From: a virus
Virus record (IMG/VR): IMGVR_UViG_3300023180_000092
Span: 1-49,614 of that record
DNA: 49,614 nucleotides
Direction: 5' to 3' (one strand)
The position numbers were made by a program, and so were the translations under genes. Below the pieces are notes generated by a model. It did not search any database. It was not told the origin of the DNA and saw nothing but the letters and a program-made list of their open reading frames with translations. Shown in pieces: positions 44,880 to 49,465 of the stretch (positions are counted from its first letter, which is position 1; every line of letters begins with the position of its first letter).

Positions 44880-46208
44880 ATGCTTGAAAGTAATCTTGCT
44901 AAAGCAGAAACTATCCCATATACAAACGGTGTAGTACACGGAGAACATCCTTTTACAAGACCAAATATAAATTATGTTATTAAAAGGGACGGAACTACTG
45001 AAGAATACAAAGAATTGAAAATTCAAAATGCCGTATCTGGTGCAATGAAATCAATAGGTATCAAAAGTAAAAAATTAGCAGAAGAAGTAAGCAATGACGT
45101 AACAGATTTATTAGTAAAAGAATTTAACGATGCAATAATTAATGTTGACTCTATTCACACTGCAGTTGAAAATATAATTATGGACATGGGTCTTCATGAT
45201 TTGGCACGTGAATATATTCTTTATCGTTTTAATAATCAACCAAACATCTTTCGTAAGAGAACAAATTTAAAGCCATATGAATATCCTCAAGTAGTTGAGT
45301 TTACTGATGCTATTCGTCATTCATATTGGGTTCATACAGAGTTTAATTATTCTTCTGATATTCAAGATATGAAAGTCCGTATGACACCTGAAGAAGTTGA
45401 TATTGTAAAGAAAGCAATGCTGGCTATTTCTCAGATTGAAGTTGCGGTTAAAACGTTTTGGGCAAAGATTGGTGATAAGTTTCCAAAACCTGAAATTCAA
45501 GCTGTTGGCGTAACATTTGGCGAGTCTGAAGTTCGTCATGCTGATGCTTATTCAAATCTTATTGAAATTATGGGTCTTAATCAAGAATTTGAAAAAATTA
45601 TTGAAGTTCCTGCTATGAAAAAACGTATTGCTTATCTTGAGCAATCAATTGCACAACCTGTAGATGATAAAGACTATTTTCATAAAATTATTTTATTCTC
45701 GATGTTTGTTGAGAATGTATCATTGTTTAGTCAATTCTTAATTATGATGGCATTTAATAAACACAAGAATTTATTAAAAGGCATTTCAAACGCTGTAGAA
45801 GCAACATCTAAAGAAGAAGATATCCACGCACGTTTTGGATTTGAATTAGTAAACATTATCCGAGAAGAAAACCCTGAGTGGTTTGATAAAGACACAATAA
45901 ATGAAGTGAATAGACTTTGCCGTGAAGCCTTTAAGGCCGAGTCTTCAATCGTTGATTGGATCTATGGTGATTCAGATCTTGACTTTTTGCCAAAAGCAAC
46001 TGTTAAAGAATTCCTAAAACATCGTTTCAATCAATCATTAACAGCTATAGATATGAAGCCTCTCTACGAAGTAGATCAAGAAGCGGTACAAAGTACCGAT
46101 TGGTTTGTTGAAGAAATTTTGAGCACAAAGAATATTGACTTCTTTGTCAAACGTAGTACTGCATATTCTAAAAAGACCAAAGCTTTCACAGAAGACGATC
46201 TATTTTAA
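44880..46208 (+). CDS. nrdB: class Ia ribonucleotide reductase beta subunit with N-terminal ATP-cone
   Basis: 442 residues. Residues 31-115 (NYVIKRDGTTEEYKELKIQN..., REYILYRFN) are an ATP-cone, the allosteric domain normally on NrdA. The ferritin-like core has E217-x-x-H220-x-x-x-Y224, with Y224 as the radical Tyr. The C-terminal AFTEDDLF tail docks to NrdA. ATP-cones on NrdB are known for a few bacteria, where dATP drives inactive beta tetramers. Good AAAGG ribosome site. Confidence 0.92.
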   Translation: MLESNLAKAETIPYTNGVVHGEHPFTRPNINYVIKRDGTTEEYKELKIQNAVSGAMKSIGIKSKKLAEEVSNDVTDLLVKEFNDAIINVDSIHTAVENIIMDMGLHDLAREYILYRFNNQPNIFRKRTNLKPYEYPQVVEFTDAIRHSYWVHTEFNYSSDIQDMKVRMTPEEVDIVKKAMLAISQIEVAVKTFWAKIGDKFPKPEIQAVGVTFGESEVRHADAYSNLIEIMGLNQEFEKIIEVPAMKKRIAYLEQSIAQPVDDKDYFHKIILFSMFVENVSLFSQFLIMMAFNKHKNLLKGISNAVEATSKEEDIHARFGFELVNIIREENPEWFDKDTINEVNRLCREAFKAESSIVDWIYGDSDLDFLPKATVKEFLKHRFNQSLTAIDMKPLYEVDQEAVQSTDWFVEEILSTKNIDFFVKRSTAYSKKTKAFTEDDLF

Positions 46209-46247: not shown

Positions 46248-47936
46248 ATGAAAAAATTTTATTGGCTCAACGACGATTCACGCACATTTTTGTCAAGAGG
46301 TTATTTAAGTAAAGGTGAAAAGCCGGAAACGCGTATTCGTGAAATTGCGAATAAAGCTGAATGGTATCTAAAGGATATGGCTAAGACTGAGGAAGTAAAA
46401 CAAAAATATGATGGATTTGCAGATAAGTTTTATGAATATATGAGTCGCGGATATTATTCTCTTGCATCTCCTGTATGGGCAAACTACGGCAAAACTCGCG
46501 GTCTACCAGTTTCTTGTTTTGGTTCATTCATTGATGATAATATGGAATCTATTTTATACGGCGTTGCAGAAAATGGAATGTTAATGAAAAATGGTGGCGG
46601 CACATCTGGATATTTTGGAGCAGTAAGACATCGTGGATCGCCAATTACTGACCAAGGAGAGTCTTCAGGATCTGTCCATTTTATGCAAATGTATGATACG
46701 CTTGCATCTGTTGTGTCACAAGGTTCCGTCCGACGCGGTTTCTTTGCAGCTTATCATGACATTGAACATCAAGATGCAGATGAATTTTTAGATATAGGAA
46801 CAGAAGGCAATCCAATACAAGGGTTAACCACAGGGATTACAGTATCTGATAATTTTATTAATGAAATGAGGGATGGCGATCCTGAAAAGAGACGTATATG
46901 GGCAAAAGTTTTACAGCGTAGATCTGAAATTGGATTTCCATATATTCTTTATAAAGATAACGTAAATGATAATAGACCACAAGTTTATAAAGATAAAGAT
47001 ATGTCTATACACGCATCAAATATGTGTGCAGAGATAGCATTGCCTTCTTCAGTTGATGAAACTTTTACTTGTGTTCTTTCGTCTTTAAATTTACTGCATT
47101 GGGACAGTATTATTGATACTGATGCAATTGAAGTTCTAACAATATTTCTTGATACTGTATGTGAAGAATTTATTCGTAAAACTGAAAATAAAGAATATCT
47201 TAAAAGAGCAAGAAATTTTGCAATAAGACATCGTGCTCTTGGTGCAGGTGTATTAGGATGGCATTCTTATCTTCAATCAAATATGATAGGCTTTGAAACA
47301 AAAGAAGCTGCTCAGAAGAATCTTGAGATTGCAAAAACATTCCGTGAAAGAACACACAACGCATCAAAAGAAATGGCTATTAATTTTGGAGAACCTGAAA
47401 TTCTTAAAGATTATGGAATGCGTAATACAACAACAATGGCTATAGCTCCAACTAAATCATCAAGCTTTATTCTTGGTCAAGTATCACAATCAATTGAACC
47501 CGAGTTTAGTAATTGCTACGTTAAAGATTTGGCTAAGATGAAAGTTACAATTAAAAATCCATATCTTGAAAAATTATTAAAGAAAAAAGACAAAGATACT
47601 CCTGAAATATGGGAATCAATTCGTAATGCTGATGGATCGGTACAACATCTTGATATTCTTACACAAGAAGAAAAAGAAGTTTTTAAAACATTTTCTGAAA
47701 TTAATCCATATACTATTTTAGACCAAGCTAGTATTCGTCAACAGTATATAGATCAAGGTCAAAGTTTAAATCTTATGTTAGATCCAGATATGACAGTTCG
47801 TGAAATTAATCAATTATACTTATATGCACATAATGCTGGAATTAAAAGTTTATATTATAGTTATTCTATGTCTGCGGCTCAATCATTGACTCGTAAACGC
47901 GTGATGTCAACGGAGTGTGCAGCCTGCGAAGCATGA
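46248..47936 (+). CDS. nrdA: ribonucleotide reductase alpha subunit lacking ATP-cone
   Basis: 562 residues, short for NrdA (about 750). Starts [20 protein letters not shown] directly in the barrel region, with no ATP-cone. SCFGSF holds the first redox Cys; NMCAEI is the N-x-C-x-E active site; the C-terminal ECAACEA contains the redox-shuttle Cys pair. The missing regulatory domain is on NrdB, so overall activity control moved between subunits. Confidence 0.93.
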
Positions 47937-47937
47937 T

Positions 47938-49131
47938 ATGAGCCATTTACATTATTTTGAAAAAGTGCTAAAAGGTTATAAAGACGACGGTAAATATAGA
48001 GTCTTTAACGATATTTTAAGAGAGCGTGGTAGATTTCCTCGCTCAATTTGGTATGGAAAGTATGCTCCTAAAAATATTGTAAACTGGTGTTCAAACGATT
48101 ATCTTGGTATGGGTCAAAACCAACACGTTATTGACTCAATGCATACCGCATTAGATCAAACTGGAGCAGGATCAGGTGGTACTCGTAATATAGGCGGAAC
48201 GTCTCACTATCACGTTACACTTGAGCGTGAATTAGCAATACTTCATAAAAAACAAAATGCTTTATTATTTACAAGTGCATATGTGGCAAATGAATGGACT
48301 CTTATTGCGTTGAGCCGCATTATTCCAAACATTTGTTTTATTTCAGATACTAAAAATCATAATTCTCTCATTATGGGGATAAAGCACAGCCGTGCTGATA
48401 AAATTCTATTTCATCATAATGATATGGAAGATCTTGAAGAAGCTTTAGTAATAGCTATTAGCAACGGTCAAGTTCCTTGTATTGTATTTGAGTCAGTGTA
48501 TTCTATGGACGGGGACGTATCGCCAATTGAACAAATTCTTGACTTAGCTGACAAGTACAATGCTATCACATATATTGATGAGGTACATGCAGTTGGGTTA
48601 TATGGTAAAACAGGCGCAGGTTATTGTGAGCACCTAGGCGTTGAAAGGAGGATAGATATTATAAATGGAACACTCGGTAAAGCGTTTGGTGTACAAGGTG
48701 GTTATATTGCTAGTGATAATATTATTATTGATGCTATTAGGTCCGTGGCTGCAGGATTTATTTTTACTACCTCAATCAGCCCAGCCGTCTGTGCAGGGGC
48801 TCTCGCCTCCATCAAATATCTCCGTGACCACACTTCCACCCGTGAACGACATCAAGAACGCGCAGCCAAATTAAAACAATTGTTGGCAGAAGCTGATATT
48901 CCAGTTCATCCAAATTCTTGCACTCATATAGTCCCTGTGATGGTTGGAGACGCATTTAAATGCAAGGCCGCAAGTGATAGACTTTTAAATGAATTTGGGA
49001 TTTATATTCAACCAATTAATTACCCAACAGTTGATGTAGGAACGGAGAGATTAAGAATTGCACCTACACCATTTCATACAGACGTTATGATGGTTGAATT
49101 GATTGAAGCATTAAAAAAGGTTTTAACTTGA
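47938..49131 (+). CDS. hemA: 5-aminolevulinate synthase
   Basis: 397 residues from ATG 47938. [11 protein letters not shown] (50-60), [32 protein letters not shown]214 in [12 protein letters not shown] and PLP-binding K248 ([15 protein letters not shown]) match alphaproteobacterial/mitochondrial ALAS rather than KBL or Bio[16 protein letters not shown] is ALAS-specific. It condenses glycine and succinyl-CoA to ALA, the committed step of heme synthesis in alphaproteobacteria. Length is the bacterial norm. Follows nrdA by one base. Confidence 0.93.
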
Positions 49132-49196
49132 AATTAAAAAGTCATTATTGGAATTGGTTTGGTTATGAAGCATTGGAGCACTTACAATGGCTGTAA
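49128..49196 (+). CDS. possible 22-residue peptide
   Basis: TTG 49128, overlapping the hemA stop, reads 22 residues rich in aromatic residues ([20 protein letters not shown]) and runs 10 nt into the next gene. Coupled starts on both sides are the only support. Confidence 0.3.
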
Positions 49197-49465
49197 AAGT
49201 TTTCTTTATCGCTAAAATGAAAGACCTCAATGACGAATACAAGGACATGAGCAAACGTATTCGTGAACTAGGCGAGGGACATCCTGGATTTATCAGTATT
49301 GAGAGTGAAGAAATCGGTGATATTGAAATTACTGTTAGTACCTGGCGCAGCCGTGAAGATGTTGCAGATTGGGCAAGAGACCCAGAACACGTAGAAGCAA
49401 AAAAACGTGCCATGGAATGGTATGAGTGGGTACGTGGAATTCATGTGGAGACTGTAGATGACTAG
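49187..49465 (+). CDS. ABM-type small alpha/beta-barrel protein
   Basis: 92 residues. HPGFISIESEEIGDIEITVS then TWRSREDVADWARDPEHVEA has the layout of antibiotic-biosynthesis monooxygenase (ABM) domains, including the S-x-W-x-x-x-x-x-x-x-W and H pattern. ABM proteins include heme-degrading IsdG/HmuD types, which is suggestive next to ALAS, but most ABM proteins are uncharacterised. Good ribosome site (GGAG). Confidence 0.65.
   Translation: MAVKVFFIAKMKDLNDEYKDMSKRIRELGEGHPGFISIESEEIGDIEITVSTWRSREDVADWARDPEHVEAKKRAMEWYEWVRGIHVETVDD

Follow-up and report, generated by a model that had tools for sequence, protein, structure and literature searches.

Genes for 5-aminolevulinate synthase (ALAS) have been reported in marine and freshwater phages under the name valaS (Wegner et al. 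2024, PMC11480375). The enzyme of one of them, CB_2 vAlaS, makes 5-aminolevulinate (ALA) from glycine and succinyl-CoA, loses its activity with the substitution K250A and complements ALA-auxotrophic Escherichia coli, and the published phage cassettes combine alaS with a heme oxygenase and a bilin reductase (PMC11480375). Here we describe an alaS gene in the IMG/VR virus record IMGVR_UViG_3300023180_000092, of which positions 1-49,614 were studied; this whole 49.6-kb stretch is referred to below as the window. Established for this gene are its family membership, an intact active site, its place in a phage clade and its position after a class I ribonucleotide reductase. Judged from its relatives, it is a further member of the published, active kind of phage ALAS, ALA formation having been shown for the related CB_2 enzyme. 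We consider it highly probable that phage alaS is expressed with the upstream reductase genes and sustains the making of tetrapyrroles, mainly heme, during infection, beyond the reach of host control over ALA formation.

Results

The alaS gene is intact from its ATG to its stop codon, and the stop codon of nrdA (47934-47936) lies 1 bp before its start. Its product scores 564.5 bits against the NCBIfam equivalog model TIGR01821 (cut-off 338.6) and falls below the models' own cut-offs for bioF (308.5 bits), Kbl (253.4 bits) and PRK06939 (306.7 bits), as it does for the serine palmitoyltransferase models; a BioF or Kbl identity was rejected on these curated cut-offs. Among solved structures, ALAS enzymes (7x98 and 2bwn) are the closest, and the contig encodes a T4-type DNA polymerase, clamp loader, UvsX, helicase, NrdA/NrdB and a ThyA-like protein, so that the initial annotation, which had named a phage ALAS from the letters of the DNA, was right on both the enzyme and its carrier. 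The residues R21, N53, T82, N84, S136, H141, D214, H217, T245, K248, T364 and R373 are all present and are unchanged across 24 phage sequences; going by the structure of Rhodobacter capsulatus ALAS, they are substrate and cofactor residues, with K248 as the pyridoxal-phosphate lysine.

The window is a fragment of a T4-like marine phage, and the virus record holds one ALAS copy. Judged by DNA polymerase, the nearest named record is Phage C48C1 (Kyanoviridae; 52.8% identity), which gives no host and has no alaS match. None of the PHROG families holds the window ALAS. As candidates for ALAS in annotated isolate phages, 19 tblastn matches (about 29-35% identity) were rejected, being BioF or Kbl wherever annotated, and many of them resemble bacterial contamination in 'phage' records. 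One part of alaS, 48630-48879, has 44% G+C against 37.6% in the window and is possibly a recombination patch.

Relatives of the window ALAS are encoded on 555 IMG/VR stretches that matched our query patterns, which confirms phage ALAS as widespread; the best 80 were kept for locus comparisons. In a tree rooted on two distant Omnitrophota homologues, and to which the published valaS sequences themselves do not belong, the window ALAS has L002 as its sister (91%) and lies in a supported phage clade, beside alphaproteobacterial ALAS and away from the outgroup. Phylogeny had been named at the outset as a check, and within the reach of these two outgroup homologues it gives an ALAS grouping and not one with KBL or BioF. 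The phage enzymes form one group (99/96 support) with the ALAS of two SAR11 (Pelagibacteraceae) bins, L092 and L093, and of a Neisseriaceae bacterium (L091); lying on a phage contig and in this clade separate from most cellular ALAS, the window gene fits the valaS group. Joining the SAR11 enzymes to the other alphaproteobacteria was disfavoured (approximately unbiased (AU) test, p 0.029), and the branching order among SAR11 and the freshwater and marine phages within the group is poorly supported (83/33). By eye, the ALAS gene of L092 adjoins a hemN-like gene. Three ALAS genes of the Rhodobacteraceae bin Water_Bin34 (L087, L090 and L143) fall within the phage clade, the ALAS of L087 being identical to that of phage contig L029; they are probably misbinned phage DNA, and the bin may be the sponge-symbiont bin given as an exception in PMC11480375.

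Directly upstream of alaS, 78 of 81 viral loci (the window and its 80 relatives) carry a class I ribonucleotide reductase gene, with a gap of at most 20 bp in 64 of the 78; relatedness among the loci means that these cases are not independent. The upstream cassettes are NrdB-ATP-cone/NrdE-prime in 30 loci (gap 0 to 7 bp), class Ia nrdA-nrdB in 29 (-4 to 0 bp in 16, 255-284 bp in 13) and NrdE-like with a glutaredoxin-NrdB in 19 (7-20 bp in 18, 329 bp in one); among the 81 loci, only L055, L056 and L080 have no reductase there. On a tree of 56 distinct viral ALAS sequences and three others, the cassette type switches at least five times, with 2-3 of the switches forced by well-supported branches. 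The adjacency of nrdA and alaS remarked on initially is thus real in the window and strongly conserved, and such lasting linkage suggests that alaS is expressed together with DNA-precursor genes.

Downstream of alaS, a same-strand gene for a DUF454 (PF04304) membrane protein follows in 75 of the 80 loci, at 400 bp or less in 56 of these; three of the remaining five end less than 175 bp past alaS, and L055 and L056 are truly without it. Of the 80 viral loci obtained by the reverse search, started from DUF454, 71 have alaS upstream; this set overlaps the alaS-started one in many contigs and includes six divergent loci (55-56% ALAS identity) with alaS 2-14 bp upstream. DUF454 is absent from the window. 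As a neighbour of cellular alaS it was rejected, the cellular loci searched by tblastn showing no adjoining match; in sampled alphaproteobacterial loci it lies beside cydC-like, hemW-like and sdhCD-like genes, assigned by eye and not profile-confirmed. Three viral stretches (L174, L175 and L222) retain DUF454 near an nrdA gene, with no alaS in between. DUF454 co-occurs in bacteria with haem oxygenase genes near type XI secretion system (T11SS) genes (PMC12282271), and it increases under iron restriction (PMC7970244). From its linkage to alaS in phages and the haem oxygenase association of PMC12282271, we infer a role for DUF454 in heme handling.

In the window, alaS is followed by different DNA. 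Position-wise identity to two relatives, L082 and L084, starts abruptly at 49155, where a remnant of 13 codons from the 3' end of a gene for an FTR1-like permease leads into the gene of an ABM-fold protein; 12 of these 13 residues match residues 166-178 of the L082 permease (tblastn E 0.002). L082 and L084 have the gene order FdxA ferredoxin, FTR1-like, ABM, and the wider relatives carry genes for FeS_assembly_P, FdxA, FTR1-like, NifU-like, ABM, phosphoribosyltransferase, IscA-like and MazG proteins. That the window continues from 49155 as permease remnant and ABM points to recombination at about 49132-49155, by which alaS would have been spliced into an iron/Fe-S cassette; the event may either have deleted the ferredoxin gene together with most of the permease gene before ABM or have inserted an nrdBA-alaS block there. 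Across L313, L315, L317, L319 and L082-L084, we noted a phage iron/Fe-S set of FeS_assembly_P, FdxA ferredoxin, FTR1-like permease (with REXXE motifs), NifU/Nfu, ABM and IscA-like genes. The L082 permease matched no Pfam family and its predicted structure is unusable (pLDDT 48), while its relatives in L313 and L319 reach 24.3 and 24.9 bits to PF03239, below the cut-off of 25.3.

The ABM protein itself matches DUF3291 in Pfam at 25.6 bits (cut-off 23.5), with a weak match to Monooxy_af470. Its predicted monomer (pLDDT 81) resembles ABM monooxygenases, retrieving 9lmm in Foldseek (1.7e-7) and aligning to SnoaB with a VIA Z of 15.3, and a dimeric alpha/beta-barrel fold of the ABM type is supported by this model; the shared fold alone gives no function. 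The usual neighbours of ABM are ferredoxin, FTR1-like, NifU-like and IscA-like genes, and it is absent from every other phage alaS locus retrieved, so that neither the heme-related partner of ALAS proposed initially nor a conserved partner of any kind could be upheld. ABM owes its place behind alaS to the junction alone: recombination made it a neighbour of ALAS and not a partner. A 51% relative of ABM lies, by eye, directly upstream of a psbA-like gene in Marine virus AG-345-D19 (L305, 4001-4276). The open reading frame that runs into the contig edge (Table 1) is similar by eye to one of 258 aa behind ABM in L082 (5272-6048).

Phage-type ALAS also occurs in a bacterium. Neisseriaceae bacterium PsAf (taxid 2815356, G009; L091 5983-7170) has an ALAS 65% identical to that of the window, surrounded by bacterial-looking genes and placed in the phage-containing clade (99/98). 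Its 1.8-Mb genome holds hemB (449.9 bits) and has no glutamyl-tRNA reductase (GluTR) or HemL over cut-off, a gene content consistent with capture of a phage-type ALAS that replaced the C5 pathway; against nesting of the enzyme among phages, a phage-only clade was not rejected (AU p 0.32). A bacterium dependent on phage-type ALAS would amount to a complementation experiment performed by nature. Among 30 Pelagibacterales genomes, drawn from the order of G001, all had hemB, four had ALAS over cut-off and none had GluTR or HemL. Most of the genomes drawn are therefore without a recognised ALA-forming enzyme, which is at odds with the statement that Pelagibacteraceae use the Shemin pathway only (PMC11480375).

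Table 1. Features of the window from the reductase genes to the contig edge
Feature	Coordinates	Strand	Evidence
nrdB, class I ribonucleotide reductase small subunit, N-terminal ATP-cone	44880..46208	+	Pfam PF00268 202 bits, PF03477 57.5 bits
nrdA, ribonucleotide reductase large subunit, NrdE-prime type	46248..47936	+	TIGR02510 756 bits, cut-off 602
alaS (valaS), 5-aminolevulinate synthase, 397 aa	47938..49131	+	TIGR01821 564.5 bits; phage clade; catalytic residues
23-bp junction, alaS to iron/Fe-S cassette; unlike L082 or L084	49132..49154	+	Position-wise comparison
3' remnant of FTR1-like permease gene including stop; overlaps ABM start	49155..49196	+	tblastn, position-wise comparison
ABM-fold protein (predicted), 92 aa	49187..49465	+	Structure prediction, fold search; relatives L082-L084, L312-L320
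5' part of family-less protein, ends at contig edge	49458..49613	+	Pfam: no match

Discussion

An important aspect of the window is what a phage would gain from its own ALAS. In the course of events that we favour, the phage would make ALA through this enzyme, expressed with the directly upstream nrdBA genes; synthesis of tetrapyrroles, mainly heme, would be sustained in the infected cell independently of host control over ALA formation, and the benefit to the phage may come via heme and respiration. The initial annotation had likewise suggested a takeover of tetrapyrrole metabolism, and indeed the phage ALAS is genuine and probably feeds tetrapyrrole synthesis; the same idea is already found in PMC11480375. 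As a whole, that interpretation is partly supported, and its core was previously known. Its further argument, that the heme would serve NrdB-type iron enzymes, does not follow directly. Class I NrdB requires a diiron centre, not heme.

Two points qualify the case for this course of events. Common descent together with recombination at one shared site, and not function, could explain the conserved locus. Escape from heme feedback is weakly argued from the residues: while the heme ligand His342 is replaced by Lys341 in the window ALAS and the Cys400 tail is missing, most alphaproteobacterial ALAS are also without the heme-regulatory motif (PMC6154995), which weakens feedback resistance as a phage adaptation.

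Other explanations concern the enzyme, its product and its neighbour. That the window encodes a different alpha-oxoamine synthase (a relative of BioF, Kbl or serine palmitoyltransferase) which makes no ALA is hardly credible: fold and cofactor are common to the family, and the bioF score of 308 bits is substantial, but each rival model stays under its curated cut-off, with ALAS far over its own, and both the closest structures and the position in the tree are those of ALAS. It also seems unlikely that the enzyme serves chiefly corrinoid, siroheme or bilin synthesis and not heme for respiration. Bilin synthesis would agree with the published cassettes of alaS, heme oxygenase and bilin reductase (PMC11480375), and L229, L230 and L231 have a heme oxygenase at a distance of 2-3 kb from alaS or DUF454 (L231 having DUF454 and no alaS within the stretch); on the other hand, no heme oxygenase turned up close to alaS in the window or the 80 marine loci, and the adjoining reductases belong to class I and not to the B12-dependent class II.

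The junction behind alaS could in principle be an assembly chimera, as it lies only 480 bp from the contig end and the exact 30-mer over its left part is in no other IMG/VR contig searched. We judge this quite improbable, given that the longest match between left flank and cassette is 10 bp, too short for a typical k-mer misjoin, that alaS is complete with its own stop and that the remnant keeps its register with the start of ABM. Some enzymes of the ABM fold degrade heme, and with the two genes 55 bp apart and an ABM fold predicted, ALAS and ABM might be seen as a heme make-and-break pair in which ABM is an IsdG-like heme-degrading monooxygenase. Such a pair is very improbable, as the permease remnant separates the genes, ABM is missing from the other retrieved phage alaS loci, and elsewhere it follows FTR1-like or NifU-like genes and precedes APRT and IscA-like genes, or lies upstream of a psbA-like gene. 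IsdG is not among the 50 fold matches listed for ABM, an absence to which we give no weight.

Returning to phage-driven heme synthesis, we tentatively propose that alaS and DUF454 form a two-gene tetrapyrrole module of aquatic phages, where the inner-membrane protein DUF454 (YbaN-like) would handle or move heme or its precursors. The module would be kept beside a class I reductase through repeated reductase swaps, and its enzyme could pass into bacteria and assume their ALA synthesis, with Neisseriaceae PsAf as an example. We regard this wider proposal as possible but rather doubtful. Phage alaS gains two testable neighbours, ribonucleotide reductase and DUF454.

Compared with known systems, the window ABM has a predicted fold in common with SnoaB and Bacillus subtilis YqjZ, whereas its sequence match to YqjZ is weak (E 8e-7), it has no family-level assignment and its phage context is an iron/Fe-S cassette. 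The window ALAS aligns over its full length with alphaproteobacterial ALAS (R. capsulatus HemA, 2bwn; 7x98) and has the same catalytic residues, but it is about 50-58% identical to most of those sampled, falls in a separate clade and has a short C-terminus without the regulatory Cys. The hemO-pcyA/X-alaS cassette is an optional trait of the published phages, and the window, in which tblastn found no heme oxygenase match, is still compatible with the valaS group because that group includes stand-alone genes. The main text of PMC11480375, figures aside, makes no mention of ribonucleotide reductase or DUF454, and going by that text the neighbours of alaS and their rearrangement in the window appear undescribed so far. 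Unlike the published vAlaS loci, the window has alaS directly after nrdBA and before ABM; like them, it encodes an enzyme without the heme-regulatory His/Cys and comes from a myovirus-type aquatic phage, and with vAlaS of CB_2 it shares a phage-borne Shemin-pathway enzyme whose active-site residues are retained.
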